The notes beneath the pieces were generated by a model, which saw only the letters and a list, made by a program, of their open reading frames with translations, searched no databases and was not told the origin of the DNA. From assembly GCA_027625915.1 (NCBI GenBank), contig JANTQA010000008.1, positions 11,967,001-12,031,000 on the forward strand: DNA of 64,000 nt, read 5' to 3'. This DNA is from Anaeramoeba flamelloides (lineage: Eukaryota; Metamonada; Anaeramoebidae). Made by a program: the position numbers and the translations under genes. Below, in pieces: positions 4,776 through 54,500 of this stretch (positions are counted from its first letter, which is position 1; each line of letters opens with the position of its first letter).

Positions 4776-4786
4776 CCCAAGTATAC

Positions 4787-17573: not shown

Positions 17574-18107
17574 TAAACCACATTCCAAAAATTTGGACAC
17601 AGCAAAAATCAAAAATTGTCAAAATAAAAACCCCAATTTATTATATTTTTCCAAAACTAATATAAAATACACATTTAAGTCACCCAGTATTAATTTTTTT
17701 TATTAGTAATTATTTTCATCCAAATAAAAGAAAAAAAATATAAACCTCAAAAAATAAAATTGAGATGTCAAAAATTATAAAACGAGCTGAACAAAAAATG
17801 TATTCGTAAATTTGTTGAAATTTCATCCGCAATTGTTGATTAATCAAATGATTAGATACCATCGACCAATTGTATGTAATCTTCCAATTTAACAAATTCA
17901 ACACTGACCTTCTATCAACCATCTAAAAAATTTTTCAAGATCTAAAAAAACAAATTAACAAACTGGAAAAAAGGAAATGAAAACAAAAAAGACAAAAAAT
18001 GAAATAGTTTGTAAAAAATCAAAATTATTTTTAAATTGAATGTAAACTTTAGTATTGTTATTTTTTCAAATGTTTAAACTGTGTCCAAAATTTTGGAATT
18101 TAGTTTA
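17574..18107 (-). mobile_element. 535 bp family, inverted copy
   Basis: Ends TAAACCACATTCCAAAAA ... TTTTGGAATTTAGTTTA. It is the reverse complement of the copies at 27425 and 46092, sharing the blocks TACATTTTTTGTTCAGCTCG (as complement) and ATACAATTGGT. It lies only 31 bp from the preceding element. No coding capacity. Confidence 0.8.
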
Positions 18108-18302
18108 TATTCCCTTCCCATTAATTGATTTCTGTTTGAAAATTAAAATAAACTAAATTTCATAATAAATTGCCCATCTTACATTTGGATAATGAATTGC
18201 TTTTGTATCGTTTTGAAGTTTTTCCTCTCACAATGAAAAGTTTGCAAATAAATCATTTTTTCTCTTTTTTATTTTTTCAACAGTGTTTTGTTAAAATGGA
18301 AA

Positions 18303-18413: not shown

Positions 18414-19277
18414 GGGTTTTTTTACTTTTTTAAATTTTCTATTTTTTATGTAATGCTTCTTTCAAAATAAATGTCCCAATTGTTTTCAACAGTTTTTTTT
18501 TATTTTTTTTTAATTTATTTTTAGACAAAAAATAAATATCTCGTGAGTATAGTATTGAATATTAAAATCTAAATTTTTATATTATAATAGATAACTTCAA
18601 TTATTAAAAATATTTTTATTTAAAATTTGATTTTTTATGAGCCAATTATTATAAAAGATAGTTTATTTTCAATTTTTTTACTTTTCATTTCAAAAAATCT
18701 CTCAAAATTTAATTTAAAATTAAAAATCTTAATTTTTAATTAATTTAATATTCTCGAAATTTGAAATAAATAAAAACCTTCTTGAAAATGAATTATGATT
18801 AACTATTATTTATCATTGCTTTTCTGATTATCATTGTTTTCAAATCTCCATTAAAATTTCATTTCATTAATTTTACAATTCAATGAATATAGTATCAAAT
18901 TTCTTCCTCAGGGGTTTATTATTATGATTATTTAATTGTCTTTTACAAAAAAAAAATCCCCATAATAAATCAAAATGTATTATTTTTTTTTATTTAAAAA
19001 AAAAAATAAAAATAAATTATTTGATAAGATTAGAAAAAATTAAATATATACAAAAAAAGTTAATGAAACAAAGAATATATAAAATCCACGATCATAATAT
19101 TATATGATAGATTGGTGTGTATAATAATAAGCAAATTATAGTCTTCTTCTAATCTTACAAATCGAAAATTTTAAGCTATTAAATTATCAGATCGATCCAT
19201 CATTCCCCCCTCTGGACGTGTTGTAAATTCTTGTTCTTCCTCGTCATTGTAATCTTTCTTGTAAATCTCAACGATCT

Positions 19278-21153
19278 TTAGTCATTGTCGTCATCGTCTG
19301 TGCTGATCATAATTGAATTATTAAATATTTTTTTTTTATGACTACGATTTGATTTTAAAGTTGTTGGCAGTTTGTCTTTGATAACATCAGTTAACGTTAA
19401 AGGGGAAGACGATTCCAAATATTGGGAATCTTGATCATTGTCACTATACTGGCCAAATTCTTCTTTTAATGTCCTAATCTGCATTTCGCTCTCTGTTAAT
19501 TGTTGCCTTAATTCCCAGAGTTTTCTTTTTTGATTTCTAGTTTCTCGAAGCAAAATTTTATTTTGAACATTTGGGGGGAGTGCTTCAGGATTGATTTCAA
19601 AATCCATTTTTTCTTTGTCCTTTGAATTGAACTGATGTTGGTGATCATCTGTTTGATAATTATTATGATTATATTTTCCCATGCTGTTATTATTATTATT
19701 ATTAGAATCGTTTCTTTGTGACCATATTTTATAATTCATTTCAATTCCTAAGAAAATTAAAACTATTCCAAGCAAAAATGTTAAAATTGCAATATAGATC
19801 CCGACAAAAGAAATCATCACAGAAGGGATTGTCATCATTAAAAAGGTTATGCCAATTGAAAATAGTTCTAAATCTCTTGTTTTGTATGGCCTAATAAGAA
19901 TGTAAGATAATGAAAATAATGCAAATATTGGAAATAATAGTAATCCAATTGTTTGTTGATTAAGAGTTGGGTATCCTAAAGTAAGAAAGGCAACCCCTAT
20001 TTGAAAAAGAAATTCAACAAGTATGAACCAACAACGATTTGGTTTGAAACGATTAGTTGATATTTGAATTAGTGATGGGAAATTTTTTTCTTCTTTATCT
20101 TTTTTTGTTTCTGTTTTGGTTTGGGCTTTATTTTTGGTTTTGTTATCGTTATCGTTATCAGTTTCTTTTTCTGAATTCGTGTCAGTTCCTGTTTTTGATT
20201 CTGATTCTTGTGTTTGTTCTGGTTCTGGTTCTGGTTCTAATTCAATTTCTTTTTGATTTTCATTTTGATTCGTTTTTAATTCATTAGTTTCAAAAGCTTT
20301 CAATTCAATACCTTTGTTAATATTTTCTTTGTTGGTTTCCTTATCTGATTCTGATCCACTGCCTGAACTTGAACGTGAATTTTTATTTGAATTATTATTA
20401 ATATTGTGGATTGGTTTTAATTCAATGTCTGATTTCAAACTTAATTCTGAATCTGTATCTAAATTTGAGTTTGTGATTGTGTTTGTATTTGTTTGTAATT
20501 TTGATTTTGGCTGTGGATTATTTTTTGTATTAGATTGTGAATTATTTTTCGAAAGGGAATAAAAAAATATTTTTATAAATAAGATCAAATAAACCAAACT
20601 GTAAAAAATTCCTAAAATTACAAAGTAAAATTTCGATTTCTCCCAATTAGCTTTAGTTATTTGGATCCTGCTGTTGGTTGGGAATTTCATATTATTAGAA
20701 GACTCATCATATTCGAAGGATAAAAGCAAGATAAACACATAAATAATTGGAAGAAATACAAATTGAGCAAATTTGTAAAAAAAATTCTGAACAAAATAGA
20801 ATTTCGAAACGAAAGTTTTTTTTTTCATACTAATCTCCAAGTTTTGAATTAAATCGAAAATAAGGAATAAAAGAAAGACGGCAATGGGTATGGATGTAAC
20901 GATTTCCCAATATTTCATAAATGAAAACCAACTATTGCATTCAATTGGGAACATGTATAATAAATCTACTATTAACCAAGAATTAATTTTCCTTAAATAT
21001 GGTACAAGTTCGCTATATTCCAATATTGGAAGTAACATTACAATGGCAATAATTTGTAGCCACTGGATTAAAATTGTTAAGAGTGAATTGCCTTTTTTAA
21101 AAAGCCAAATTGTTTTTGAATAATTATATAACTTTTTAATTTCGTTATTTGAA

Positions 21154-21251
<98 letters not shown>

Positions 21252-22747
21252 GTGATGGTGATTATTTTTTATCTTTTTGTTGTTTTTTGGATTTAATTTT
21301 CCTTTAGTTGTATAAAAAAGATATTTACACAGCATTAAAAAAATGAGAATTAAAGGCACTAAAAAAAATTTTAAGAGATTAAGAAATAGTGATCCACATT
21401 CTGCGCAGCCGTTGGTATCAAGAAATTTCCCTTCATCACAGGCAGTGCAATTTAACTCTGGGGAAAGCGAAAATGTGCAGGTGTACGAGCCCAGGCATAA
21501 CAAAGGATCAGAGCATTTGTAACAACTTGTTGCCCCAATCTCTTGTCCAAGTTTCAGTTCGAGTGTTAGATGGCCAGACTCGCATGCCGTGCATTGACTT
21601 GACCCTGTAGAGTTTGAGTAATAGCCAGATTCGCATGCCGTGCAGCTTGTTTGCTTTGAATTTCGGTAAGTTCCTGGGGGGCATGCCACGCACCCGGTTG
21701 AGCCAGACAGGAAAGAATATGATCCCAGGGGGCAGTTTTCACAGCAGTCGCTGCTATTTGATCCAGCTGTCTCGGAAAATGTGCCGATGGGGCAAGACAA
21801 GCATAAAGCAGCAGAGGAAGCGCCAGATTTCTCATTGTATGCCCCCGCTGGACAGGAAACACACGGGTAATGATCAGCACCTTCGGTGGGCGAGTATGTC
21901 CCAGGGGGGCATTTGAGACAAAAGTCCAGAGATGTTTTTCCCTCCAATAAGTTGTAAGTGCCCGCGGGGCATGCAAAGCATGAAGAGAGACCCCCCGCAT
22001 TTCCATATGTGCCACTTGCGCATTCCGTGTAGTTACTCGAACCTTCCCCCGAGTACGTGCCAATCGGACACGTAACGCAACTCTCAATCCCATACGATCC
22101 ATTGTTCGGGTTGTATGTGCCAGACGGGCAATTAATACACTCATCGCCCGTGGACATATATTGGCCCATTTGGCAATTATTCTCTTCAGTTAAAATTATG
22201 CTGCTTTGGTGCCTTAAAGCCATTTTATTACCCAAACCCGATTCGGTTTGAATTCTTTGTTGTGTAGTTTTTTTTTTTTTTTTTTTTTTTTTTGTTTATT
22301 GTTTTTTTTGAGTTTTTGATTTCATTTTTTTAAATGTAAAGTTGTACGAAGAGTTTTCTCAAATTAGTTTGTTTTTTATTAAAAGACCAAGTTCCTTTCT
22401 GTGGTCGGTTTTGTTGACAAACAATAAATTTCTTGACAAAAGTATTTTGGATTTGTTAGGGAGATTGCCCATCGACGGCTTTTATTGAGTTGAGTTAACG
22501 TAAACAAGATTTATTGAACAAATGAGTTGACAAAAAATTGGCAATCTTTTATGAATTCAAACAACATCAAAACAAAAGTATTTTTTTTTCTTTTTTTTTT
22601 ATTTTGTGAAATTTTAAAAAAGAATGTTTACCTTTTGGTGTCTATACGCAGAAATAAAGAGAACAAAAGAATAATAAGAACAATTAAATTTGTTTGACGA
22701 GTAAGTTGCTTACTCCAAAACAAAAAAATAGTCATTATTTGCTTCAT
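19278..22747 (-). CDS. Cys-rich (ephrin-receptor-like repeat) multi-span membrane protein
   Basis: Two exons, 22747-22632 and 22254-19278, 1030 residues. Exon 1 encodes Met-Lys-Gln-Ile-Met..., then a hydrophobic stretch Leu-Ile-Val-Leu-Ile-Ile-Leu-Leu-Phe, a plausible signal peptide. Its GTAAAC donor joins in phase 2 to exon 2 (AG|A = Arg39). Residues about 60-320 carry repeated Cys-Pro-x-Gly-Thr-Tyr motifs with paired cysteines, the GCC2/GCC3 ephrin-receptor-like pattern. A first membrane span (about 328-350) is followed by a His then Asn homopolymer (about 371-407), several spans, an acidic Glu/Lys/Thr/Ser-rich loop (about 604-764), four more spans (about 778-884) and a C-terminal coiled coil (about 925-978). 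It is probably a surface receptor or channel-like protein; ligand unknown. The Cys-rich part is notably less AT-rich than the rest. Confidence 0.8.
21152..21262 (-). repeat. Trinucleotide tracts encoding poly-Asn and poly-His
   Basis: (ATT)n followed by (ATG)n on the + strand, read in the gene as about 13 Asn codons and 20 or more His codons. Confidence 0.9.
22255..22631 (-). other. 377 bp intron of the Cys-rich membrane protein gene
   Basis: Donor AAG|GTAAAC and acceptor AACAAAG. Splicing supplies a signal peptide that the long second exon lacks, in the correct phase. A T-run of about 24 (+ strand) lies close to the acceptor side. Confidence 0.65.
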
Positions 22748-25335
22748 AAAAATGTGTAGATCTTTTTCAGATTAAAACATTGGGGAATTAAATAAAAAAA
22801 AAAAAAATAAAATAAAGTTTTGAATTGCCCAAATAGAAAAAATGAAAAAAAATCTATTCTGGATTTAAAATTGAATTATATGTTACTTTTTAGATTATTT
22901 TTTGGAAAGAATGTTTCTATCTTTTTGTGCCAAAAATAAATTTTTTTCGGACCTTACCTAATTTTAAATTGACTTCAGTACACAATAAAAATTGTTTTTT
23001 ATCTTTCTTTTAAATGCAAAAAATAATAATTCTCTCAAAAAAAAAAAGTTGACAAATAAATAAAAAAAAGTCTTTACTTTGAAAACCAATTGAATTTTAT
23101 TTCCAGGAAGCAATTTTTGTGGGATTTGATCTATTCTCAAGTTAAAAGTTATTTTTTGAAAAACTTTAATTTTTCTTTTTTTAAAAATAGTGAAATCAAA
23201 ATTTGCTCATTTCAATTGTAGCAAATATTTAGTTTACCAACAAATCATTTCACAAAAGAAAACAGAATCCTAAAAAAGGTTGTTGTATAATATGTTTAAT
23301 GCCAATTGGGAAAATATTTTCACTTTTGTTACTTTTTTTTTTTCTAGAATTTCCAAAACAACAAAAAGAAAATTGTTAACTCGATTTTTATGAGGATCAA
23401 TTATTTAACTCCTTGCCTTGGGTAAGGCCAGAGGCATGGTTGAAGGGAATTTTTAAGATTGACTGATTACAATAATCAAAAGTAAATCGATTTAGTATTT
23501 AAAACGAAAAGTAATAAAAAACGTAAATTATCTCTCAGAGAGTTTACTATTCGATCTTGAACTTATGGGTGATCTGAATTGTTTAAAATATGAAATTATA
23601 CGACTCAAAAGAAGAGGATATTTACACAATTCTTCAAAAATAACAAAAAATTAATGTTTAATAAATATCCCAAAAAATTAATCTTATCGCTATATAAATT
23701 GGTAAAACTGTTTATCTCATGTGTGTAACAATATTTTGTTATTTTGGGTCTCTGCTGCTTGATCTCAAACATAGATAATCTTTTATGGGTTACTCAAAAA
23801 GAAATTGTTTTTCGCTTTCAGAATTTGTTGAAGAGAGTGGTGTTGAGACAGAAACCTTGAACCATAAAAAATTAGGTTTTCACAAGGTTTTTTATTGAGA
23901 ATGTATTTTGGTTCTCTTTCCTTTTTTTGAAAAATTTTCTTAACGTTGCTGTTCAAATTATAAAAATGTCAAAAGTGGGTGAAGGTTTCTATTATTTTTA
24001 TTTGGTATATCAGAATTAAAAAGATGACATATTGAGCTATTGTATAACAATAGATGTTTTTTTATGAAGCACCTCCTCTACTCCCCAGTGTTAAGAGTTA
24101 TTAGTCATTTCTTAATCGAAAAAGAAAACGTTTCATCATCACGTTCAAATGTTTGTAGATGATTTAATTTTAAACCAAAAAGGAGAAATATTAAAAATTG
24201 AGAAAAATATAAGAATAGTTTCCAAAATTACCACAAGAATCGAAAATGAACATAAACACTTTTAAAACTTTATAACCAAATCAATTATCAGAAACAAAAT
24301 AATTTGGAATTCGGTTCGAAAAATAAAAACATAAAAAACCAAACTACTGAAAAAGTTAGAGATAAAAATAAAAAAAATCCAAAATGATTTTAAACAAAAA
24401 AAAACTGGTTAACGGAGTAATATTAAAAAGGTTCAAAACAATACATATTCATTCAACTTATTTTATTTCAATTTAAAAGAGTTTGACTCAAGAGATAGAT
24501 ATGAAATTAAAAAAGTTACAACATTTTTTAACAATAACTCCAAATTTCCGAATAAAATTTATATTTTTCGAATAAGAATTTACTCAAATTTCATCAAGTT
24601 TAAAATAAACGATTTTAAATGTTATTGGTGTACCAATAATAATATTTTCTTATTTGTTGTGAGTCCAGATTTGAATTTTAAGAAAAAGTCAGACAAGTTC
24701 AAAGATACAACAGTTATATTATTATGTGATTTGATTTGATCTTGGAAAATAATTTTTCATTTTTGCAATTATTTTTAAAAGATTTTTATTTTTTTTTTTG
24801 ATGAGAAATGTTCTTACTAAAATTATCAGTACAGTCTTTCCAAAGAGACCGTGAGAATGTTTCAATATCAAATTTTGATGTTGACATAGATTTTTAAAAA
24901 GTTGAAAATGAGAATAATAAAGCTCATATTGAAAAAAATTATAAATTAATAAATGAGTTCATATTGAAGAATTGTTATTGAAACTCATAAAATAAGTTTT
25001 CAGTGCACGTAATGACTCTAAACAACGAAAATCAGCTCAGAAACCACATAAAATTTAATTTTAAAAAAATCTATTTTTTTGATTATATCAGAAGACTATT
25101 TTTCAAATCAACTCATTTATGAAAAAAGTTTTTCAAATAAAGCTTTCTTATTCTTATATTCTTAGATTTAAAAATCTATATCAAGATCAAAATTTAGTCT
25201 TGAAAAAAATCTATGGTAGCCTTGGCGAAGATGTATAATGATAGTAATTCAAAACACAACACATGGAGTTATCACTATTATCCATAAAATAATGTGATTA
25301 ATTTTATACTGGATAGAATAAATGAAAAAAAAATA

Positions 25336-26234: not shown

Positions 26235-26427
26235 AGTTTCTAATATAAGGCACAAACTTTCAAAGGAATTTAAGACACAAAAAAATCTCAAATTAAGGCA
26301 CAAAAATTTGGATTTTTTTTTAACAAATTATTTTATCAGAATCTGAATTTTGTGTCTTAATTTGAGATTTTTTTTTTGTGTCTTACTTTTCGTTGCATTC
26401 TGTGCCTTAAAAGTAGAACTTACTGTA
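26230..26427. mobile_element. 197 bp palindromic MITE, diverged copy
   Basis: Begins AGTCAGTTTC and ends CTTACTGTA, with inverted blocks AAGGCACAAACTTTCAAAGG and complement-like TTGCATTCTGTGCCTT. It shares length and structure with the copies at 28959 and 40448 but has more substitutions. The AT microsatellite abuts its left end. Confidence 0.75.
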
Positions 26428-27035
26428 TACATAAAAATTAACTTTTAAATATTATTCAAGGATAATAAAATAATCTATTTATCCAAAAAAAAAAAAAAAA
26501 AAAAATTTTTTTTTTGATAAAAATATGAAAAAAATCTTCCAAATAATTCAATTCACCAATCCGAATTAATATAGATATTTAAAAATAGTTTTTGATCGAT
26601 TGTATCCACTTATATAATATTTTAAATTTTATTAATAGATTTACAAAAGTTATAAATTAATAAAATATTAAAATTAAAAGAAAAATCAACTTGGATTCAA
26701 GATTGAACTTGTGATTAATAATTTAAAAGAAAAAAATATTTGTTGAAAAAACTGACAAATTTTATTATGGCATTTCTCAATAAAAAAAAAATAGAAAATT
26801 TAAATTCAAGTTCCCTAAAAATTTTTATAACTGTTAATTGGCTAAAGCCAAAAATCTACCCAAAACCAATGAAAAAGGTTATTTCAGCAATTTTACTTAA
26901 GCCTCCTTATTTTTGAACTTTGTGATGAATTTTTAATTATGATAATTTGATCTAACTGTAATGAAAAATAATAATATTTTTTTTTTTTCAATTTAATTTA
27001 TAAATTTTTTTTTTATTTAACAAGTATTTCTAAAC

Positions 27036-27056: not shown

Positions 27057-27424
27057 AATTATCGAATGGCAACCCACAGGCAAAAGAAATATTTTACACG
27101 ATTTGAAAATATACTTTTATAACGAATCAACTGTTTATTAAAGTATTTTAAGAAATATTTGGTGTAAAAAAAAAATATAAAAAATTCCCAATAAAGAACT
27201 TTCATGTTTCAATAATTAAAAATATATTTTTCTTGATAATTAGATAAACTTCTCCAAAACAAAATCCTTATTTTTTAAAATTTTGGGAAAATTTCTATTG
27301 AAAAAGAATAAAAATAAAAAAAATAAGAAATTTTTTTCAAATGTTAAAAAATTTTTATTTAAAGCTAATTTTTTATATATCCCCCTTTTCAATTTTTAAA
27401 TACAAAATTTTCTTTTGAAGATAA

Positions 27425-27963
27425 TAAACTAGATTCCAAAAATTTGGACACAGTTTAAACAGTGGAAAGAACATCATTTCTGCACTTTAAATCCAAATTG
27501 GAAAGAATTTTGATTTTACAAACAATTTCATTTTTTGTCTTTTTTGTTTTGTTTTCATTTCCTTTTTTGAAGCTACGTAATCTGTTTTGTTAGATCTCGA
27601 AAATTTTTTCCAAGGGTTGATAGAAGGTTAGTGTTGAGTATGTTAAATTGGAAAATCACATACAATTGGTAGATGGTATCTTAACATTTGATCGATCAAC
27701 AATTGTTGGTGAAATTTCAACAAATTTAGCAATACATTTTTTGTTCAGCTCGTTTCATTATTTTAGATACACTGATTTTTATTTTTGAGTTTTATATTTT
27801 TTTTTTATTTGAGTTAAAAAGGATACTTATTAAAATATTAATACTGGGTAACTTAAATGTTTTTTTTTATATTAGGTTTGGAAAAATACAATAAATTGTT
27901 TTTTTTTTTTTGCCTATTTTTGATTTTGGGTGTGTCCAAATTTAAGGAACGGGGTTTAGTTTA
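27425..27963 (+). mobile_element. 535 bp family, copy
   Basis: Begins TAAACTAGATTCCAAAAATT then TGGACACAG, and ends GTGTCCAAATTTAAGG then GGGGTTTAGTTTA, its imperfect inverted match. Long shared interior with 46092-46627. No protein encoded; short frames at its right end are chance. Confidence 0.8.
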
Positions 27964-28958: not shown

Positions 28959-29157
28959 TAGTCAGTTTCACTTTTAAGGCACAAACTTTCAACGAAATTT
29001 AAGGCACAAAAAAATCTCAAATTAAGGCACAAAATTTGGAATTTTTTATTTTACAATTTATTTTTACTAGAATTTGAATTTTGTGCTTTAATTTGAGATT
29101 TTTATTGTGCCTTAAATTTCGTTGAAAGTTTGTGCCTTAAAAGTGAAACTGACTGTA
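28959..29157. mobile_element. 197 bp palindromic MITE, well-preserved copy
   Basis: The left half, starting AGTCAGTTTCACTTTTAAGG, is repeated almost perfectly in inverted orientation, ending CTTAAAAGTGAAACTGACTG then TA. Arms are about 80 bp with a short A/T-rich loop. TA at both ends fits a Tc1/mariner-type target site. Near-identical to the copy at 40448-40648, so recent. Confidence 0.88.
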
Positions 29158-29480
29158 GTAAAAAAACTTTGATTTTACTAAATTATTTTAAATTCTTGAA
29201 ACCATAATAACAATTCTCTTGATGGTTTCAGCTTTTTCACTAATATACATTGATTTTCCATTTAAACATTAAATTCAAGAAAAAATAAGTAAAGTTTTTT
29301 TTTAATTTTTGTATTGATTTCGAAAATTAAATTTTTTTTTTCTCATCAAAACCAAAATTAAAAAAAACCTCACAGTAATTTTCTCGAATTGAAAATAATT
29401 GGGTAAAATTTCAGATTTTGATGCCTATTCTATTGAAATATAGTAAAAATTATAAAAAATGTACACCAAGTTCCGTTTAG

Positions 29481-39195: not shown

Positions 39196-40447
39196 TCGAA
39201 AAAGTAAAAAAAAAAAAAAAAAAAACTACTGTTAGGGTTTCTTGAGTTTTATGTTTTATTTCAAAAAGTTAAAAAATATGCCTATATCTTTACCATAATT
39301 TAAAAGAATTGAGTAAAATTAAGATTGTTCTCCTTTCTTTTGAATACTAGAAAAGGTGTGCACTCCGAGGCAAAAGAAGGTTTTTGGAGGACATTTTTGT
39401 AAGATATTTTTAATTTTTGAAAAATCAAGTAAAACCTATAATTTTATTGCATTCTTCAAAATCCCAGGAAAGTTATCACACTTTCAATATTTATCATCAG
39501 TTATTTTTTTCAGTATTTGGGTTTTTGAGATGAGTTTAGCATTTTCAAAAGTTTGGGTTATTATATATTAAATTAAATGTCTTGAGGTTGAATTAACTAC
39601 AATTCATACCCCCTTTCATTTGTTATTTTTTTCCCCGGATAAAAAAATCCTTTTTTCTCGACAGGGGGCTTTTAAAATGAATTTTACTATTGAAAAAAAT
39701 AAATAAAATTACCTTGGGGATGTTAAGTATAAGAATTTTGATTATATTATAAATAAAATTTATGATTAACAAGTATGAAATGATAATCGAAGTAGTAGTT
39801 TTATAAAACTTGTTTTTTTTTCAATTTTTTTTTTTCATACGAGTTTCGGGCATTTTATAAAATTTTTATTTTTGTTTTGATTTATACTAGGTATATTCAT
39901 ATTTTATACACTACATGAATTTAAATTTAATATATTATACAATAAAAATGAAGTGAAAGAAGGATAATTAACGTAAGTCAAAATATTTCATTTTTAGATC
40001 TTTGAGTTTTTTAATCAAATTCACAGAAAGGTATCTTGATCAACATATTTAAGGAAATTTTATATAAAAAATATCAAAAACTTGAATAATTTTGCTTTTA
40101 GTATTGTAACTGGATTATCCAACGTGTTTTTAAGTATTGTGATAAACCTAAAGTAAACATATAAGGTTTGAATATAATTTTAGATCAAACTAGTTAAAGA
40201 AATTTTTAGTTGGTGGACCTTTTCAAATAAATTTCAATTTTGGATCAATAAAATACTATTAAGGTATGATATATATCTGAAAAAAAAATGAAATTTTCAA
40301 TTTGAAGGTCTCTTAAGCGAATATTCCCACAAATTATTAAATCTGGGATTAGTAACTGTATTTATTTCCTCCTAATCCAAAATACAAATAATCTGGTATT
40401 GATACTAATTAAAAAACACAAAATATTAAAGAATAAAGAAATTTTAC

Positions 40448-40648
40448 TACAGTCAGTTTCACTTTTAAGACACAAACTTTCAACGAAATTTAAGGCACAA
40501 AAAAATCTCAAATTAAGGCACAAAATTTGGAATTTTTTTTTTTACAATTTATTTTTACTAGAATTTGAATTTTGTGCCTTAATTTGAGATTTTTTTTGTG
40601 CCTTAAATTTCGTTGAAAGTTTGTGCCTTAAAAGTGAAACTGACTGTA
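40448..40648. mobile_element. 197 bp palindromic MITE, well-preserved copy
   Basis: TA, then CAGTCAGTTTCACTTTTAAG ... CTTAAAAGTGAAACTGACTG, then TA. Arms of about 80 bp are almost perfectly complementary, and the copy is nearly identical to 28959-29157. The clearest copy for defining the termini and the TA target duplication. Confidence 0.9.
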
Positions 40649-42125: not shown

Positions 42126-43330
42126 TTTTACCTTCAAAATTGATTTGAACTTAGATATATTATTGTGTAGCAAATTAGATGCTATATTGGAACAAAAAGA
42201 AAAAATGTAGGATTATGTTTGAAAGATAGATTATTATCTCTTGGTACGTTTTTTTTTTTTTACTATGATAACAATAGATTATTTATTTTTAGAATTTCTT
42301 TTATGATCAGCAGAACTATAAGAAGTGTATATCATATTTAAAATTAAATTTTATTTTTTTTTTTTTTTTCTTCATTTGATCTTATAACCTTCTAGAAAAA
42401 CACTGTTATTTTAATTTGTATCAGCGTTTTTACTGAGTCTAGTCCTGTTATTTTCACAGTTGAATTAAAAGCCAACTTGATGAAAAAGTAATTAAATTAA
42501 TTCTTCATTAGGTGTGTTTTTAAAGGCTGGGTAAGTCATATATTAGAGTAGAACAAAAAAAAAAACACCAAAAATCACACTAGTTTTCAAAATAAATATA
42601 TTGTAATCTTTGTAAAGATGCTCATTACTACTTGAAGAAAAATCAAAAGGGTGAGATTTATAATGTATTTGAAGAATTTTTTTGAAATGTACCCCTTAAA
42701 TCTAAAAGTTTTTTTTTATCTTAATAGAAATACAAAGACATTTTAACGATTCAACACGTTGAAATATTTTCCCTATTTAAAAGAATCTTCGACCTCTTAA
42801 CATCTTTTTGGAGGAATTGATTATTCTCCAATCTCAAAAGAAAACTCGTTCAGCCAATCTATGGTTGTTTTGGATGAGAAAGACAATTAAAATCTTGTAT
42901 TTTTTTTTATTATAATAAAATGAAGCTTCTCGAAACCAAAACTGATTCAAGTCATGTTTTAATAACTAAACTCAGTTCTCAATTACCTTTTTATTGAAAA
43001 AGTTAAATTGAATAGAAATCAAAAAGTTTGACTTTGGGTTTGTCTTTTTTTCACAAAACATAAAAGATGAAAAATATTTCTTCAAACAATTTCTTCGATA
43101 GAAGTAATAAAATCATTTGCTTTTTCTCAACCAACTATCTGGAAAACTTAAATTTTCAAATAGTTTTCATATTTTGTTTTTGAAAAAATTCCACAACCTC
43201 TACTCTAAAAAGCAACTTTTGTTCTTCGTCAAATCAAGAAAAATTCATCAGTTTTGCTCAAAAACTTTACATTTTTTTGAAAAAACTCTATTGTTTCTTT
43301 TTTCAAATTTTTTCACCTTTACTTTTTGAG

Positions 43331-44761
43331 ATGACAGCAACTAACCTTCCCTTAATTAAACCAGAGTCACTTATCAAACAAACTACTATAATTGGAGAGC
43401 ACACCCTCTTAAAAGGATCTGAAGATGAGCTTGTCAAAGTTGAAACCATCATTCTTCCAGTGTCTACGAACAAATTAAGAAAAAAACTCTATGAAGATTT
43501 ATGTGTCTTGATGAATGGCAGTATGAATGAAAATCTTCAAAGGTGTCTTGGCAAAGTGTCCTGTGAAAAAAAGGAGCCTACAATTTTTGTGAATGAATAT
43601 TTATCGACAACACTCGAGGATTTAATTGAACAAAAAACAAAACAAAACAAATCATTCAGCGCAACAGAAATTTGTGAAATTGTTCTTTCGATTGTCAATG
43701 GATTAGATTTTGTCCATAACAAAGGATTTTGCCATCGTACCTTATGCTCAAAATATCTCAGGTATTGTGAAAAAACCAATAAATTCAAAATAACAAATTT
43801 CCAAAACGCACAAAAATACAAGTGCACCGAAAACGAAATTGAAAAAGAAGAAAAAGAAGAAAAAAAAGAAGAAGAAAAAGAAAAAGAAAAAGAAAAAGAG
43901 CAAAAGCCTTCTAGCCTTCAAATCACACGATACTCGCAACCCGAAATCATACCAAGGCCACAGAAGCAAATCGCAGCACCTGACGCAAGTGCTGACATTT
44001 ATTCGCTTGGTGTGATCCTATATGAAATCACCGAATTAGAAATGTACCTTAATACACTACCAGATCTCTCTGCGGCAATTTTAGTGGCAGACAAGGGCTA
44101 TCGCCCTGTCATTTCAAAAACAAACGAATTCAAAGCAATTATTGAGAAGATGTGGGATCAAAACCCAGAACGGAGGCCTAGTTTGAAACAAATTAAAGAA
44201 GACATACTTAGCTTTCAAGAAACCATTGGTAACAAAGTCAAAACGGAGCAAGAGGTTAATAAAAAAAGGCCAGAGTATTACGATAAAGAAGTCGTCTATT
44301 CCCTTGAGCAATATTCCAACCAACAGAAGCCAATATTCGAGGAAATCACCACGGGGCAATTACTGAAACTATTAGAAACAAGCACAGACTCTGTGGTCAA
44401 TTCGTACTCCCCTTATAGCAAATTTAAAGTCGGGGCTGCTCTTCTTGGCACCAACAACGAAATCTACTGTGGCGCAAATATTGAAAACGTCTCCTATGGG
44501 CTGACAATTTGCGCAGAAAGATCCGCCTTCTTCCACGCAGCCTCAAAGGGGTGTAGAGAATTTAAGGCCTTAGTAATCACCTCTTCAGGCGTAGAAGACT
44601 TTACTTACCCATGCGGCGCCTGCAGACAGGTCATTGTGGAATGGGGCCAATTCCCAGTAATACTCTATCGTCTACAGGATAAGGCAATCAAGGTTACCAC
44701 AGGTTTCGGCTTACTCCCCGAAGCATTTACCCCCTTTATACTTGAGAATTCAATAAATTAA
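43331..44761 (+). CDS. Pseudokinase-cytidine deaminase fusion protein
   Basis: 476 residues in one exon, with ATG at 43331 (the frame is open upstream but has no other ATG). The N-terminal two thirds have protein-kinase architecture, with Tyr-Ser-Gln-Pro-Glu (APE position), Ala-Asp-Ile-Tyr-Ser-Leu-Gly-Val and Glu-Arg-Arg-Pro-Ser. The catalytic motifs are lost: HRD is His135-Arg136-Thr137, DFG is Thr155-Asn156-Phe157, no glycine loop or VAIK lysine is evident, and the activation segment is a Lys/Glu run. Residues about 340-476 are a cytidine deaminase with Ser-Pro-Tyr-Ser-Lys-Phe-x-Val-Gly-Ala-Ala, zinc/catalytic Cys394-Ala-Glu396, and Pro-Cys428-Gly-Ala-Cys431. This family deaminates (deoxy)cytidine to (deoxy)uridine in pyrimidine salvage and normally has about 130-150 residues, so the domain is full size. 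The deaminase part is visibly more GC-rich than its surroundings. Confidence 0.9.
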   Translation: MTATNLPLIKPESLIKQTTIIGEHTLLKGSEDELVKVETIILPVSTNKLRKKLYEDLCVLMNGSMNENLQRCLGKVSCEKKEPTIFVNEYLSTTLEDLIEQKTKQNKSFSATEICEIVLSIVNGLDFVHNKGFCHRTLCSKYLRYCEKTNKFKITNFQNAQKYKCTENEIEKEEKEEKKEEEKEKEKEKEQKPSSLQITRYSQPEIIPRPQKQIAAPDASADIYSLGVILYEITELEMYLNTLPDLSAAILVADKGYRPVISKTNEFKAIIEKMWDQNPERRPSLKQIKEDILSFQETIGNKVKTEQEVNKKRPEYYDKEVVYSLEQYSNQQKPIFEEITTGQLLKLLETSTDSVVNSYSPYSKFKVGAALLGTNNEIYCGANIENVSYGLTICAERSAFFHAASKGCREFKALVITSSGVEDFTYPCGACRQVIVEWGQFPVILYRLQDKAIKVTTGFGLLPEAFTPFILENSIN

Positions 44762-45174
44762 TTATTTTATTAATTAATAGCATGACGTTTATTGATTAAT
44801 ATCGGAATAAATGAAATAATCGAATTGTCAATTACTAATTCATTTATTGATAATTTCTTTATGTAGAATATAAATTTGTTAATTACTCAAGAGTTATGTT
44901 TTTAAGTTCATAATCAATCTTTCTTAAATGCCGAACCAATTTTTTTATTTCTATTTTTTTTTTTTTTTTTTTTATTTATTTTTATTCATTTATTTGTTCT
45001 CCTCCTTCCCATTATTCTTTCTTTATTCAATCGTTTATTATTCGAATAAAATATACTTTTATAGTAGTTATCATTTTTTCTCTATAATTCATTCTTTTTT
45101 TTTTTTAAATACTGTGTCTAAATTAATTGCTAAAACTAACTTTTCTTGCTTTTTACAACTTATCAAAAAAACTA

Positions 45175-45323: not shown

Positions 45324-46091
45324 AACTTTTAATAAAAGATCAATAAGTTGATATTTGAAAAAAAAAAAAAAAAATCATAAAAGAGTTCATTTTCCAGATA
45401 TTTTTGTCATCTGAAAAAAATCAATCGTTGTTATTTAAAGAGTGAAATATAAGTTTTTTACAAGGCTTTTTGGCTGAGATAATAGACTATGGGTATATAA
45501 AGTTTTTTTCTGAGACTAGTATATTCAAAACAATTACATAATTTTTACCTCTTGTTACTTTACTATTTTTTTTTTTGGTTTTGGGAAATTCCGTTTTCAT
45601 AAGATTTTGTTTCATTAAAGATTTTCAAAATCGATTTTTTTTTTGTTTTCTTTTTGAATTAAAAATATGAAAGTTCTTAATACTCTCTTTATCTAAAGCG
45701 AGTTAAAAAAATCTCAAAATTTAATTTATGCAAAAAAATAAAGTTATTATTTTATTTTATTGTGAATTTGGAGAGGTAATTTTTCTAATTTATCCCTGTT
45801 TTGCCCTTAGTTTTTTTTTAATTTCAAAAATTAAAAAAAAAATTTCAAATATTTACTTATTTTTTTCCAAAATTTAAAAAACTGCTGTTAGTTTATCTAG
45901 TATTCAAAAGTCTTGAGTTAAATAATTATTTTTTCTCCATTCTTTTGAATTCTGGAAAATATAGGCACTTGATGGCACTCTAAGACATTTTATGATACAT
46001 AAACCATTTTTATATTTTTTACTCTAATGTTAATAGTAGCAATAGTATAACTCAAAAATAAAAGTTTTTCATTAAAGAATATAAAGAAAAG

Positions 46092-46627
46092 TAAACTAGA
46101 TTCCAAAATTTTAGACACAGTTTAAACAGTTGAAAGAACATCATTACTGCGCTTTGAATTCAATTTGGAAAGAATTTTGATTTTACAAACAATTTCATTT
46201 TTTGTCTTTCTTGTTTTGTTTTCATTTCCTTTTTTGCAGTTACGTAATCTGTTTCGTTAAATCTGGATTTTTTTTTCAATGCTTCATAGGAGGCCAGTGT
46301 TGAGTTTGCTAAATTGGAAAATAACATACAATTAGTAGATGGTATCTTAACATTTGATCAATCAACAATTTTTGGTGAAATTTCAACAAATTTACAATAC
46401 ATTTTTTGTTCAGCTCGTTTCATTATTTTGGATACACCTGTTTTTATTTTTGAGTTTTAAATTTTTTTCTTTTATTTGGATTAAAATGATTACTTATTAA
46501 AACTTTAATACTATATCACTTGTATGTTGTTTTTATAGTAAGTTGGGAAAAATACAATAAATTGGGGGCTTTTTTGCCTATTTTTGATTTTCGGCGTGTC
46601 CAAATTTTTGGAATGGGATTTAGTTTA
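46092..46627 (+). mobile_element. 535 bp family, copy
   Basis: Begins TAAACTAGATTCCAAAATTT and ends GTGTCCAAATTTTTGGAATG then GGATTTAGTTTA. Same orientation as, and long collinear identity with, 27425-27963 (shared TTGATTTTACAAACAATTTC and TTAACATTTGATC). Confidence 0.82.
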
Positions 46628-47591
46628 TTTCAAATAAAAACAAAACAAAGTGAAAGATAAGAAAGAAATAAAAAAGGTTAGAATTGGTTTGTAGGGATTG
46701 GGTGTACAAGAAATTTAAATCTGTTAAAGAATGGGTTTTGAAGTGAAGAAATTTGTGATCCCTAATCCAAAGAGTAGTCAAAAGACCTTTTAATTGCAGT
46801 AATTAGAAGTATTTTAAACTCAATTTAGTTTTCTGACAATAAAAGAGATTAAAAAACTATAAAAAAAGTATGGAATTAATTCCAAAATATATTTTTTTTA
46901 TACTTTGAATGCTCTTTTATATTTTTCATTTTATTTTAATTGTGTTGAATTTTCAAAATAGTTTTCAACTTACCCACATGTTGATTATTTTCTTCTACCC
47001 ACAGTTTAATAAACAAAATATTTTGATATCAGGAGCGAAAAATAGAAAAAAGTAAAACGGAAAATACAAAAAAAAAATGATAATATTTCGAATTTAGTAT
47101 GAATTAGAAAAATAATTTTGAATAAATAATTCATTCTTTTTTTGTTTTAATATCAACTCTATTAACTTTTATTCAAAACTTATAAATTATAGCCCAACAA
47201 AAAACTTGGATTATTATAACAATTTAAGGCTATTTGGTATAATTTATATTATCTCTATTTCTGTTGTTTTGCACAATAAAATTTAAGAGAATGTATAAAT
47301 GGTTTTAATATATATATATATTTAATTTTTAGTTATTATTTACGTAAATAAATTTTGATAAGATATAAAAACATATTTTTTTTAATTTATATTTGACGTT
47401 TAAGCAATTACTGGGTGAGCAATTTTTATAAAAATTATCAATTTAACCTCTTTATCCGAAATCCAATTTTTCATATAATTCCTATATCGAAAGAAACAAT
47501 GAAAAATATTCTTTTTTTAAAAAAAAGTTAAATCTAGTAAATTGCATATAATAAATTCCGTTACAAAAATACAGATCCACCTAAAATAATA

Positions 47592-47792
47592 TACAATCCG
47601 TTCCACTTTTGAAACACAAACTTTCAAAAAAATTTAACGCACAAAAAAATCTCTAATAACAAGTTCATTTTTAGAAAATTTTATTTACACAAATTGTTTT
47701 ACTAGAATTCGAATTTTGTACCTTAATTTGAGATTATTTTTGTACTTTAAATTCCGTTGTAATTATACGTCTTAAAAGTGTACTCCACTGTA
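47592..47792. mobile_element. 197 bp palindromic MITE, degenerate copy
   Basis: TA-flanked. It begins CAATCCGTTCCACTTTTGAA and ends CTTAAAAGTGTACTCCACTG. The internal order matches the MITE family, but the arms no longer pair well, so it is the oldest of the four copies. Confidence 0.7.
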
Positions 47793-49893
47793 TTGAATAT
47801 TATATATATATATGTATATGTATTCAAGAACAACAAATTATAAAATTTTTTGAATAATTCACTTTTAAACTCATTATAAACATATAAAACGTTGATATAT
47901 CAAAAATTCAATAAAAAAAATAAAACTAATACCTAAAAAAATTTTATTCACAATTTTTGAAAAGAACAATACCAATTTTTATACTCCAACTTTCACTAAA
48001 AAAAATAAACAAAGAGATTTTTTACTAATAATTATCTGAATTTCAAAAAACCTTACATATTATTAAATTTTCTAATATTTATTGGTAATATCAAAGATGG
48101 ATTTTTTTCTGATGATCTTTTTTAAAAAAATGAAAAAGAAAAAAAAAAGAGGAAATAAAAAAAAATAATAATAATAAAGATGAATAAGTGAAGGTAATTA
48201 AACGAAAAAATAAAATTTGAAGCAATTAGAAAAAAGAAAAAAGAAAAAAAAATAAAACCATATTAAAAAAAAATGAAACAAAAATTAGATTAACGAAAAG
48301 AAAAACTGATTCTGATACAAAAATTGAAATTATTTGTATAATAATTTATGAAAAAAACCACCCAAACCCTCTTTCAATAAAATTAAAAAACTAGGAAAGA
48401 TTGTTTAAAAAATAGTTCAAGTTTAGTTTTATGTTTTTAATCAATTTATTTGATCATAATATCTATCCACGTTTCATCATTTAGTTCTGTTTAAATACAA
48501 AATTAAAGCTTTATACTATATAAATTCATTTATTAATATAAGTTTAATAAAAATATATACAAATTGATATAAGATAAACTATTAAAAGAATCAAATTTTC
48601 AAACTATTATTCAGAGAATTTGTTATTTAATCAATATTTATATTTTATATATACCACTTGGTTTTTTTCCCCAAAAAAAATCTTTGAAATTTATGGAAAA
48701 TAATACAGAAATATTTATTTTTTTTTCATTTATTGGTTTTTAATGCCTTTTATAATTCAGATTAATCAATTTACAAACATTTGACAGGGCTTTATTAAAG
48801 GGTATATTTATTAAAAGAAAAGGTAAAATTAGACCAAATAAAATAGGTGATATATGATCTCCTTGAAATATATCAAGAACTTCTCTTTGATAATATTTTA
48901 ATAAAAAATTTTTAATATTTTTATTTCTAAAAAAAAATTTTTCTTGTTTTTTCAAATAATTTTAAAAATATTAAATAAAAGTATCTATCTGTATCAATCA
49001 TTATAATATAGGCTAGACCTTAACTCACCCCCCCCCAATTTATTTTTATTTTCTGTTATTACCTGTATTTAAAATAATTAATACAACAATACAAATACCA
49101 TATTTTTTCAAAAAATCAAATTCGTGATTAATGAATCAAATTCCCAGCATAACTCAGTTAATTTTAAAAAAAAATCCTGGTTTGCTTAAATATCAGCAAA
49201 TTACAATTAAAAAAAAAAATAGGTCTCTAAAAACCAAAATTGATTGTTTTTACATATATACTAATGATCAGATTCAATTTTAACTTTATTTTGTTCTTTA
49301 ATCTTGAAAAAAATAAAAAAATAAACAAAAGTTACTTGTCCAGATTATGGTATTTTAAAAATATCCAGACCAAGAAACAAAGAAGATTAAAATAAAAAAA
49401 AATAAAAAAAAATAAAAAAACAGTCAAGATAACTAAAAAAAAACTTTTTTAATTAAAAATTTCGCAAAGATACCCTTGATTTTAAATTAAAAAAAAAGAG
49501 ATCACGAATAAAATACAAAATATTCATAAATTCTGAAATCAAAGAAAAAATGCATAAATAAAAAAACTTTTAAAAAAAAATACCGCTTGATTGGCATCCC
49601 TCTTTAAAAATTTCAAAAATGTGTTTTAAATTAATTGAATTGAAAACTAAGAAGGTTGTGATTCTTATGGTTCCAATTATTGATGAACCAATTGAAGAAA
49701 AAATATTTTTGAAATTATATTGTTCTATAATGTCCTCAGGAACAACCAGAGAAATATTTTAATCACACAAAAGAAATAATTTTTTTTGGATAATGTAAAG
49801 AAAAAAGCCTAGTACATATTATTCTACAGATATTTTCAAATAAAATTAAACTACTTATGATCACTTGAACATGTAAACATATAATTTAGACTA

Positions 49894-51543
49894 TTATTGG
49901 AACAATTGTTCTAATTTTATTTCAATTCTTTTGGTAATTACCATGCAGGCTTTGATCGGGTTTTTTTCAAGATTTTGAAAAATCTGATCAGTCTTTTTGC
50001 CATATATCAAATATAGAGTTTGTACCAGAAAGGGTAGATTAAACAAATTGCTTGTGTCTGCTTTTTTTTCTTTTTCTTTTTTCATTTTCTCAACAAGCCC
50101 GATTAGCAAATCAATCAAATAATTGTGTGTAGTTTCCAAATTTTTGATGATTCTTTCAATTTCAGAAACCTCACGATTATAATTTTCATTAAAATATCTT
50201 TTTCTGCTTGTAGCTCGATTATTTGTTTGATTTTGATTCTTGTTTGAAAATGTATTTTGGTTGGGAAATGAGTTTGGGAAAATAGATATTTTTTTTTCTA
50301 TTGTATTTCTTCTAAATTTTAAATTTTGAGAGATCAGATCATTCTTAAAATTCATGTTTGCTTGAGTGTATTTGGATAACTGCCCGTCTGTATAATTTGG
50401 GCCTTCTGTTATGATGTTATTTTGTAAAAAGGAATTCTGAACAAAAAGCAAGTCCTCATGGAATTGATTTTTGTTTGTATCATAAGAGCCTTGTATTAAC
50501 GATTTGAAATATTTTTCAATTGCCAATAATTTGCACCGCTCAAAGTGATCATGTAAGAGTAAAAACAATTCACATAGCGTGAGCTTTTGTTGAGTAAACA
50601 AAATGATTAACTGGATAATCGTCAAAAATATATCATCTGGCAAAAGTACCAATAAAAAGTATAAAACACTCCTAATTTGTGTTTTTAGATTTTGGTTGTT
50701 TGCTTTTTCTTTCTTACATTGAAAAATAAATTTTTCATTTTTGTTTTCATTGGAGAGAATTTCTTTTTCTTTTTCTTTTTCATTCAATTTATTTACGTTC
50801 TCTTGGGCAAACTGTTGGTTGTTTCTTGTTATTTCTTGAGAATTTATCCCAGACAAATACTGGTTTAAAAACAAAGGATTTTTCGAATTTTTGAGAGTTT
50901 TCTCAAATTGAGTTGAAAGTCGAAAATTCTTTTGTTTTTCTCCTTTTTCCAAATTGGAATTCGTATTCTCTAAGAAATCTGATTTGTGCCTGTTTGTTAG
51001 GCTTTGCGAAGTATCAACAGTTTGTTGATTGAAACTTTGAGTTTGGTATTTGGGTAAAAACTTATCAAACAATTCCAAAAGTGTAGGATAGTTTTCCAAT
51101 AATTTCTTGATCTGTTCCTCTAATTGCGTAAGCCGAAGTGTGCCTTGATAGTAGCCCAGCAGCACCTTGGAAATTTGGTTTTTGATTTGTGTTGTTGTTT
51201 CGTTTTTCACTTTTTGCATCATCTCAATACACAACTGTAAAGAGACTGGCAAAAATTGTTTAAAGCCAGAAAGCAAAGAATGCTGATTTGAAAAAATCTC
51301 CATAATCCTTAAGACCATTGACAACAGTCCGATTTCGTTTTCCTTATAGCTACGCAGAACACTTAGAAATTCTTGGTATTTGAAAGGCTCGTTCCGAAAC
51401 TTTATTGAGACTCTTTTTAAATAATCCATTGCTGAAGCTAGCTCTAGATTCTCGAGTTCTTTGGGAACACCAACTGATTTCACGGGTTGTATATTATTCT
51501 GTTGCAACTCTTTTGTGTTATTGGTTTGGAAAGGGTTGTTCAT
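49894..51543 (-). CDS. Sin3-like protein with paired amphipathic helix (PAH) domains
   Basis: 549 residues, one exon. An in-frame TAG lies six bases upstream of ATG 51543, which fixes the start. Residues about 36-100 match a PAH domain closely: Ala-Met-Asp-Tyr-Leu-Lys-Arg-Val, Phe-Lys-Tyr-Gln-Glu-Phe-Leu, Gly-Phe-Lys-Gln-Phe-Leu-Pro. A second PAH-like segment lies at about 120-167 (Tyr-Tyr-Gln-Gly ... Leu-Leu-Glu-Leu-Phe-Asp-Lys-Phe-Leu-Pro), and a weaker helical-pair region near 280-345. The rest is Asn/Gln/Lys-rich linker. PAH domains are the repressor-docking modules of Sin3 histone deacetylase scaffolds. The HDAC-interaction domain of full Sin3 (over 1000 residues) is not evident, so this is a short PAH protein whose nuclear, corepressor role is inferred. 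Confidence 0.75.
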   Translation of the reverse strand: MNNPFQTNNTKELQQNNIQPVKSVGVPKELENLELASAMDYLKRVSIKFRNEPFKYQEFLSVLRSYKENEIGLLSMVLRIMEIFSNQHSLLSGFKQFLPVSLQLCIEMMQKVKNETTTQIKNQISKVLLGYYQGTLRLTQLEEQIKKLLENYPTLLELFDKFLPKYQTQSFNQQTVDTSQSLTNRHKSDFLENTNSNLEKGEKQKNFRLSTQFEKTLKNSKNPLFLNQYLSGINSQEITRNNQQFAQENVNKLNEKEKEKEILSNENKNEKFIFQCKKEKANNQNLKTQIRSVLYFLLVLLPDDIFLTIIQLIILFTQQKLTLCELFLLLHDHFERCKLLAIEKYFKSLIQGSYDTNKNQFHEDLLFVQNSFLQNNIITEGPNYTDGQLSKYTQANMNFKNDLISQNLKFRRNTIEKKISIFPNSFPNQNTFSNKNQNQTNNRATSRKRYFNENYNREVSEIERIIKNLETTHNYLIDLLIGLVEKMKKEKEKKADTSNLFNLPFLVQTLYLIYGKKTDQIFQNLEKNPIKACMVITKRIEIKLEQLFQ

Positions 51544-54500
51544 CAATGGCTAAATTGAGAGTCAATTTTTCAAATCGTCCTCCTAAATCAATACTTTTTT
51601 GATCCAATTGCTTGACAACAAAAAATGATTATTTTTTGGGTTAATTAGGATCATCAACTTTTTGGTGTTTTAATTCTCGTCATGAGTTTTACGTTTATCG
51701 ACATATTATAATTTATTGTTGAATAAACTTGATTTTTGAATTTCTCTTTTTTATTTTTCGAATTTACTTTATGAGGGTTGTTTTATTGCACACGAAAAAA
51801 AGTTAATCAGACTATTAACTTTTTAAGAATTTTTTTTTTTTTTCTACCTGAATGATATTGCCCTGGACTTCGAGATATTAACTTGGTTGAACATTCATTT
51901 AAATGGAATTATTTTTTTTTATTACTAAAAAAACCAAATAAAAAACCTACATATTGTTATCAAGGTTTCAATAAGAACAATGATATAAATCGAGTAAGAT
52001 CTCATTTCTAATGATTTTAGGATCACTTAGACTTTTTTCTATTTTTGATTAGTATATTTGCTTTTCACAATGGGAAAAAAGTTCACTTGATTTTTTTGAT
52101 GTTTCTTTTACACAGAGTGTTCGATTGTCCAAATGCTTAAATTGGCCACTCTTTTGGAAAAAATAGTAGGAAAGCGAAGTGACTATTTATGCCCCAATTA
52201 TTAGGCAAACATAATTTAGCGAAATATTTTCAAATTTGAAAGAAAACTTTTCTTTCTTAATTCGAAAAAGACAATATTTATTTTTATTTCAACACTTGAC
52301 TGAAAAGGAATATAACCCACGGTGGATCTAAGTTCCCAATCAAGAACTTTCTTAATTTCTCCGTTTTTGGAAAGTTGATATTTTGGCTCTCCTAATTCTT
52401 AAAATGTTTTTCAAAGTTTTTAATTTAGCTATTCCTGTGTAAGCAAAAAATAGTATAAAACACATATTTTTTTACTCAACACCAACCAATTTTCAAAGTC
52501 AATTTGATCATGTTTTTTTCTCTCAAATAATCCAAATCTTTTACATTAGGTTCGTTTTATGGAATTTATATCTGGGTTGTTATGATCAAAAGTTTATGAT
52601 GCCCAATTAAAGTTAGGAGTTCAATGAGTCTTGTTTCTCGAATTATTTACTTTTAAGTTGAAAATTCAACTTTTTAAATTATTTTTTTATAATAATTAGA
52701 AAGCAAAATTTTTTACTTGTTATTTTAATAATTTGCCAAAATTAGAAAAAATTTTACTGAAGAGATGGTAGAGAACAATACATAATTCAAAAAACTCTTT
52801 CTGATCAAAGGGTGTGGGTTTGACCTTTCAAAAATCTACAAAATTTCAATTCCCAACTAACAAAGTCAAGTTTTGCCACCATTAATTTAGCAACCAGTAA
52901 AAAAATATATATATTTTTATTTGAATTCCTGATTGCTCAAACAGATTTGAATTTGATAACACTGTTTATTCAAAACTCTTGTTGGGTTTTGTCAAATTAA
53001 ATTACACTTTTTTAATTTTATTTGTTAACAGATTTTGACGATAATTTGCCAAAATTTTAGGTAGTTTACATATACCCGAGTACCTAATTTTTTGGATTTC
53101 AATTTGGAGTGAGAATTCTTCTACAATTTGCAAAATAACAAAAGAGAGAGACTTTTCAGAAGAAATACTTTGTAAAATGCATTTCTTATGTCCAAATTGT
53201 TATTTAATTCCTAGAAAAAAACGAATTCGGTAACTTTGAAATTTTCTGTATTCCAAGTATTTCTTGACAACATTTTCTTTATTAATTTTACTATTAAAGG
53301 ATGAAAGGGATCCAAATGATCCATTATTTGAAATTAAAATGTTTATGCATTTCATTCGAGATTTTGCTGGTTTTTTAAGGTGCGGTGCATTTACTTTTAA
53401 ATATTCACTTTCCCAAATTGTAGCATAATCATGAATAATAGCAAATTTTGCTTACCAAACCACAAATGATATTTTTCATTCTTTCCTTTGAAAAGATATA
53501 CAAAAGGAAATTCAAATAAAAAAATATATTTTGCCATTTATTTTTCAAATAGTGTAACAACGTTATTTTATATTAGAGTGTATTTAGTGAAGAAAAACAT
53601 TCTCTTCAGAGAATTAATTGTAAAATAATTATTTAAAATTTTTTTTTTAACTTTCAAAAAAAAAAGTAAATTTTGATAAACATTATATATTTAAAGATCA
53701 CAATTCAAGGCTACCCAATGCGAAGAAGAAAGAATTAAAGGATTTGTCGGTGTTAAATTTCTAATTAGTTATTGTCAAAAATTTGGAAAATAGTCCAACA
53801 AAAATCTCTCCTAATTTATTTTTAAAAAGAAACTTTGGTTATTAGTTTGTGATTCTTTGTTTCCATGATGTTTTTGATGTTTTTGTGATTCAGATACCTC
53901 ATAAAATCAGAAAATTATTTGAAATATAACTGAATATCCAAAATTGATGAATTTAAATAACAAAGTATCTGAAGATCTTTCGTAAATACTCTTTTTAAAG
54001 AGAATAAACTTTAATTAGTTCACAAAGCGTAATAATATCCAAGAATAAAAAGACCTATTAGTATAAGATCCAGCGTCTTATTTTCCTATTTTTTTTCTTA
54101 TTGCTTTAATCAAATTATCATAATTGCAATTTTATCTCAAAGCCCAATAAAAAATTCTATTCAAATGTCTTTAAAGATCATTTTTAATTGATTTTGTGAT
54201 GAATTTAGTGTTTTTTCTCTTTATAATCTGTAAAATTATGTGTAAATTTGTAAACAACATTTCATTATTAAAGTGAAAAATTACAGTAAAAGTTTCTTTG
54301 CATCTGAACATTGTTTTTGGAAATAACACATTTGAAAAGATCAACCATTTAGTTATTTAAGAAACATTTTAAATTCCCTTAATTTGGAAATTTTTTCCAC
54401 TCATATCTCAGAAAATTATTAGTCTTGTGACTAATATTGATAATATTTAAAATAGAACTAATGACCAATTTCAAGTTAATTACTCTCCAAATCATCACTA

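Follow-up and report, generated by a model that had tools for sequence, protein, structure and literature searches.

The 64,000-nucleotide stretch of Anaeramoeba flamelloides DNA analysed here (the window) carries a gene that, by its sequence, joins an N-terminal pseudokinase of TKL type to a cytidine deaminase (CDA), and the same fusion is encoded at three further sites of the genome. The protein is read, with a probability of about 0.6, as a functional CDA of pyrimidine salvage in which the pseudokinase serves for regulation or docking and not for catalysis. Selection appears to keep the pseudokinase on this housekeeping salvage enzyme in all four gene copies. Should the deaminase be under pseudokinase control, this lineage would have coupled its pyrimidine recycling to a signal.

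Gene and domain layout

The frame was translated from an ATG at 43331 to a TAA stop, giving a single unbroken frame (43331-44761, forward strand) of 476 amino acids. The translated protein was searched against Pfam, as the first-pass annotation had proposed for both halves. Pkinase (PF00069; E = 1.2e-17, residues 77-290) and dCMP_cyt_deam_1 (PF00383; E = 2.7e-15, residues 347-439) were each matched above the curated cut-off, and PK_Tyr_Ser-Thr (PF07714; E = 4.5e-17, residues 44-291) was also matched above cut-off. The proposal that a kinase fold and a deaminase share one uninterrupted frame was thus borne out, both by the open frame at 43331-44761 and by the four fused copies in the genome. 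The layout of the gene is as follows.

43331..44761, + strand: whole gene, pseudokinase-cytidine deaminase fusion, without evident intron (open frame, Pfam, three full-length paralogues)
43331..44245, + strand: kinase-like domain, residues 1-305, TKL type by profile and catalytically degenerate (PF00069, PF07714, four-copy profile)
44246..44344, + strand: linker, residues 306-338 (paralogue alignment)
44285..44320, + strand: conserved linker motif KEV[VI]YS[LY]E[QE]YS[ND] (paralogue alignment)
44345..44758, + strand: cytidine deaminase domain, residues 339-476 (PF00383, TIGR01354 above cut-off, mouse and human CDA)

Four fused copies in the genome

The genome that contains the window (254,072,379 bases in 76 contigs) was scanned for further copies. 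The deaminase is encoded at four sites on four contigs, named C9 (the window), C17, C13 and C1, with 96% (C17) and 75% (C13 and C1) identity to the window copy, and each site lies within an open frame of 476-525 aa. A genome search with the kinase part returned the same four loci as its top matches. The full translations all read kinase, linker and deaminase with no internal stop, and the kinase and deaminase Pfam families were matched in every copy (PF00069 and PF07714 each in 4/4). The copies fall into two deeply diverged groups of paralogues, C9/C17 and C13/C1; across the groups the kinase parts are 36-37% identical and the deaminases 73-74%. Three segments of the window, 19093-22947, 42739-45170 and 49396-51665, have collinear matches on C17. 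The two groups and these collinear blocks together indicate an older pair of paralogues, each doubled afterwards.

The block duplicated between C9 and C17 was compared over the window and contig C17:3125001-3149192, where DNA identity is 74-82%. C13 and C1 share two stretches (93% and 85%) with order preserved. The genome as a whole may be an old doubling or a hybrid.

The chance that the fusion is an artefact, produced by an assembly join or by two neighbouring genes, is practically negligible. Two donor-like GT sites do lie close to the kinase/deaminase junction (44229 and 44275), and possible internal Met starts are present in three copies, directly before the deaminase in C17 (Met345) and directly before YSPYS in C13 and C1 (Met361), so that an internal start for the deaminase is conceivable in those three. 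Against this, the window copy has no Met beyond residue 274, so that a separate deaminase would lack a start codon in frame, the linker motif is conserved across copies, and the fusion recurs on four contigs, in two cases with only 36-37% kinase-part identity to the other two. An assembly join near 44250-44350, named in the first-pass annotation as a result that would overturn the fusion, does not fit four contigs that carry it in one frame. Since four separate contigs each carry the fusion as a single open frame, a two-gene or assembly artefact at the window locus was rejected.

The kinase-like half

A profile built from the kinase part of the four copies was compared with PDB chains. RIPK1 ranked first, followed by MLT/MAP3K20, CTR1 and B-Raf, all of which are taken to belong to the TKL group; on this ranking the domain is of TKL type. 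PADLOC matches were confined to the kinase part of the fusion protein. The domain resembles TKL kinases and pseudokinases in its significant kinase-domain match and in the C-lobe motifs PE, DxYSxG and NPxxRP. It differs from TKL kinases in being joined to a nucleoside-metabolising enzyme and in having lost the VAIK Lys, the HRD Asp, the catalytic-loop Asn and the DFG Asp. The positions concerned were located by alignment, the first three against both the paralogues and other kinases of this genome.

43439..43450, + strand: VAIK position, reads VETI, beta3 lysine lost
43733..43741, + strand: HRD position, reads HRT, catalytic Asp lost
43796..43804, + strand: DFG position, residues 156-158, reads NFQ
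43829..43909, + strand: Glu/Lys-rich insert in the activation-loop region (DFG to APE), in C9 and C17, not in C13 and C1

In the four-copy alignment the VAIK site reads VETI or VETV, the HRD site HRT in C9, HGY in C17 and HGN in C13 and C1, and the DFG site NFQ in C9 and C17 and SLE in C13 and C1; the catalytic-loop Asn is replaced by Tyr or Thr throughout. All four residues looked for as the mark of an active kinase are therefore absent from 4/4 copies, and the domain is catalytically degenerate, as had been claimed from the window alone. The individual motif calls stood for HRD (changed to HRT) and for the lysine motif (now VETI). The DFG position had been placed at TNF and is corrected to NFQ, since KITNFQ of the window copy aligns to KITDFG of same-genome kinases.

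For comparison, 13 kinase-like proteins encoded elsewhere in the genome were aligned; they represent 13 of 14 non-fusion loci (L020 omitted) drawn from 20 loci out of 56 matches to the kinase-part search. HRD Asp and DFG Asp are both retained in 12 of the 13 when the alignment is judged by eye, the exception being L026. A motif search over the 14 loci recovered both motifs in 10. L020 gave DFG only, and L022, L026 and L027 gave neither motif; L022 and L027 were missed by the pattern, and both Asp are present in them by eye. The VAIK Lys discriminates less well, being shifted or missing in the alignment of several of the 13. Loss of the two Asp in 4/4 fusions, set against retention in 12/13 other kinases, suggests a loss that both paralogue groups share and that is not general in this genome.

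The exception, L026 (contig C48, frame 1498-3030, - strand), encodes a pseudokinase-like protein of 510 aa, in a frame without a visible deaminase. It reads HGN for HRD, shares TNF around the DFG site with the window copy, and has a long insert rich in Glu and Lys. It is possibly kin to the fused pseudokinase.

A bifunctional protein, in which the kinase-like domain would be active by unusual chemistry in the manner of WNK, CASK or SelO, is highly improbable. SelO is a further precedent for activity without the standard kinase residues. Kinase domains that lack those residues are sometimes active, with WNK and CASK as examples (PMC4718504). The joint absence of Lys, HRD Asp, loop Asn and DFG Asp from every copy speaks against such an activity, as do the HRD and DFG substitutions, which differ between the two groups.

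Selection and conservation

Synonymous and non-synonymous changes were counted by the Nei-Gojobori method within each pair of copies. The dN/dS of C9-C17 is 0.183 for the kinase and 0.052 for the deaminase; that of C13-C1 is 0.197 and 0, respectively. These four values differ from neutrality (p from 2e-16 to 3e-10; Fisher test on rounded counts of synonymous against non-synonymous changes), and on these counts both halves are under purifying selection. The N-lobe alone gives 0.63 for C13-C1, with few changes, and the linker gives 0.44-0.76 between groups on 33 residues. Conservation of the kinase half in the four-copy alignment clusters in the C-lobe, away from the active site, and is highest in one stretch.

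43928..44200, + strand: best-conserved kinase stretch, residues 200-290 (RYxxPExIPRP ... DxYSxGVxLYE ... PDLxAAIxVADKxYRP ... QNPxxRP)

Here 47 of 91 columns are identical in the four copies, compared with 47 of 214 elsewhere in residues 1-305 (p = 7e-7, for a range picked after inspection of the alignment). Ten of the 33 linker columns are identical, eight of them inside the KEV[VI]YS[LY]E[QE]YS[ND] motif.

The main rival to a regulatory or docking module is a passive anchor, in which the pseudokinase places the deaminase (at a membrane system, the symbiosome or the cytoskeleton) or stabilises it and leaves its activity uncontrolled. This is possible, on the unlikely side of even. The kinase half diverges much faster than the deaminase, as a loosely constrained tether would also be expected to; the Glu/Lys-rich stretch of the activation loop is present in just one of the two groups; and conservation biased to the C-lobe suits docking as well. 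A full-length kinase domain under purifying selection in both groups is, however, more than a simple tether would need.

The deaminase half

The C-terminal part was scored with NCBIfam and compared with solved structures. It passed the equivalog cut-off of TIGR01354 (tetrameric cytidine deaminase) with 119.7 against 113.65 bits, and the closest solved structures were mouse CDA (E = 6.3e-26) and human CDA (E = 1.3e-25). Two motifs are invariant in the four copies and in all 17 bacterial CDAs aligned, which are a subset of the 80 loci kept out of at least 587 relatives that an alignment query returned from bacterial genome contigs.

44510..44518, + strand: Cys-Ala-Glu (4/4 copies, 17/17 bacterial CDAs)
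44609..44623, + strand: Pro-Cys-Gly-Ala-Cys (4/4 copies, 17/17 bacterial CDAs)

Cys-Ala-Glu is presumed to supply a zinc ligand and the catalytic, proton-shuttling Glu, and Pro-Cys-Gly-Ala-Cys the two remaining zinc ligands. The intact deaminase centre described from the window alone thus holds in every copy. An AlphaFold model was computed from an alignment that included the 17 bacterial CDAs and no kinase relatives. Its mean pLDDT is 62.9 and its pTM 0.41; the kinase part is poor, and the ten-residue blocks over 341-460 in the deaminase all lie at pLDDT 88-98.

Cytidine deaminases of the TIGR01354 class are active as homotetramers. The fusion is like other members (human and mouse CDA, bacterial Cdd) in possessing the whole domain with its CAE and PCxxC zinc centre. 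It differs in that the solved chains are 133-150 aa long, whereas about 305 aa of kinase-like domain precede the deaminase in the fusion, and in that the same genome yielded fusions only and no free-standing copy. The deaminase superfamily also includes editors. A deaminase aimed by the pseudokinase at nucleic acid, or at another substrate than free nucleosides, has a very slight probability, given a domain within the tetramer-class CDA equivalog and closest structures that are the mouse and human enzymes.

Recent lateral import of the deaminase was considered and set aside: the step in G+C is inconsistent across copies and makes poor evidence. Third-codon G+C of deaminase and kinase, respectively, is 0.478 and 0.334 in C9, 0.486 and 0.320 in C17, 0.367 and 0.378 in C13, and 0.345 and 0.372 in C1. 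A tree of 90 deaminases, in which human and mouse CDA were the only other eukaryotic rows and columns were few for the number of rows, clusters the four copies (SH-aLRT 100) and leaves their placement among the others unsettled.

Pyrimidine salvage context

PF00383 matched six sites in the genome, namely the four fusions and L110 and L111, which scored equally; no free-standing cytidine deaminase was found with this profile. The best NCBIfam match of L110 was TadA (75.6 against a cut-off of 150 bits), and its motifs are HAE ... PCxxC, presumably those of an ADAT2-like tRNA deaminase. Judged from L110, the pair is taken as ADAT2-like tRNA deaminases.

OMP decarboxylase (PF00215) was not found in the genome with a profile that was positive in 14/14 control genomes, all of them prokaryotes, and introns or divergence could hide such a gene. 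The uridine kinase profile gave 26 genome matches, 12 of them above 160 bits and none over the cut-off of 220.3; one locus, L119, passed the PRK05480 uridine kinase cut-off (191.6 against 180). With no OMP decarboxylase match and many uridine kinase matches, pyrimidine salvage is probably important in this organism. A salvage role is likely for the fused CDA, and that role may even be essential.

Loss of de novo pyrimidine synthesis is a possible reading of the missing OMP decarboxylase match. Thymidylate synthase gave one genome match and DHO_dh seven, among which L127 was best matched by PreA, a dihydropyrimidine dehydrogenase subunit (312.4 bits, cut-off 335). PNP_UDP_1 gave nine matches, in part fragments of a single gene; the best match of L116 was purine nucleoside phosphorylase, below cut-off.

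Proposed function and comparison with known fusions

The deaminase half would convert cytidine and deoxycytidine to uridine and deoxyuridine and, like its class, would assemble as a homotetramer. The pseudokinase may bind a partner or its own kind through the conserved C-lobe, and this binding may determine how the deaminase assembles, how active it is or where it is located, in a manner comparable to RNase L. The suggestion in the first-pass annotation that a pseudokinase regulates or localises salvage is plausible in view of the selection on the kinase half and of a genome in which neither another CDA nor OMP decarboxylase was found. A bolder version is rather doubtful: all CDA of a protist seemingly deficient in pyrimidine synthesis would be gated by its TKL pseudokinase, which would respond to a partner, a ligand or phosphorylation by switching the tetramer on or off. 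Were it true, a metabolic enzyme would have acquired a pseudokinase switch resembling that of RNase L, perhaps used to tune nucleoside traffic with intracellular symbionts.

Membrane guanylate cyclases carry a pseudokinase and a cyclase in one chain, and pseudokinases on output enzymes, in these cyclases and in RNase L, act as signalling switches. The fusion, known from its open frame, is like RNase L (ankyrin-pseudokinase-RNase) and the guanylate cyclases in combining a pseudokinase with an output enzyme in one chain; their output domains, RNase and cyclase, are unrelated to its deaminase. In RNase L the pseudokinase is regarded as a scaffold for homodimerisation of the fused RNase, and ATP is still bound in a canonical way (PMC4718504). 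Such ATP binding is unlikely for the fusion, given its motifs.

The first-pass annotation knew of no described protein with this architecture. The titles and abstract starts listed by searches of one open-access library agree, in that no kinase-CDA fusion was found in them; eukaryotic protein databases lay outside this search. In the main text of the Anaeramoeba genome paper no word begins with 'deaminase' or 'kinase' (PMC11550330). On this literature search, the pseudokinase-CDA fusion may be a new architecture.

Sequence collections were queried as well. A deaminase-only query of genome contigs returned 58 stretches with no relative among them, and the fusion query of viral contigs (IMG/VR) returned 11 stretches, again with no relative. 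In plasmids (56 records) and phages (16 records) the CDA matches stayed under 60% identity. No kinase was seen by eye upstream of CDA, within an 800-base flank, in the 80 bacterial loci kept out of at least 587; 13 of the 80 had an upstream frame of more than 60 aa, of which up to the last 120 residues were inspected.

In four loci from Clostridia MAGs (L072, L077, L093, L106) the frame ahead of CDA runs on for 188-233 aa uninterrupted by a stop. It contains HGxxHLxGYDH, taken to be the YbeY motif, and these loci are apparent YbeY-Cdd fusions.

Genome and window background

G+C content of the window is 24.4%. Anaeramoeba genomes are A+T-rich, the A. flamelloides assembly is almost six times the size of that of A. 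ignava, and A. flamelloides has more than 1100 ribosomal protein genes where A. ignava has 82 (PMC11550330). The uL14 profile (PF00238) gave 32 exon matches in the genome, about 16 gene copies, which fits this expansion of ribosomal protein genes.

Two repeats were noted in the window. A dispersed repeat of about 540 bp lies at about 4785-5322, 17574-18111, 27423-27960 and 46088-46630, and also matches near the C17, C13 and C1 fusion copies. A second repeat, of about 200 bp, lies at about 26246-26428, 28961-29162, 40440-40648 and 47592-47794; it matches the same places in both orientations and is therefore probably an inverted-repeat element.
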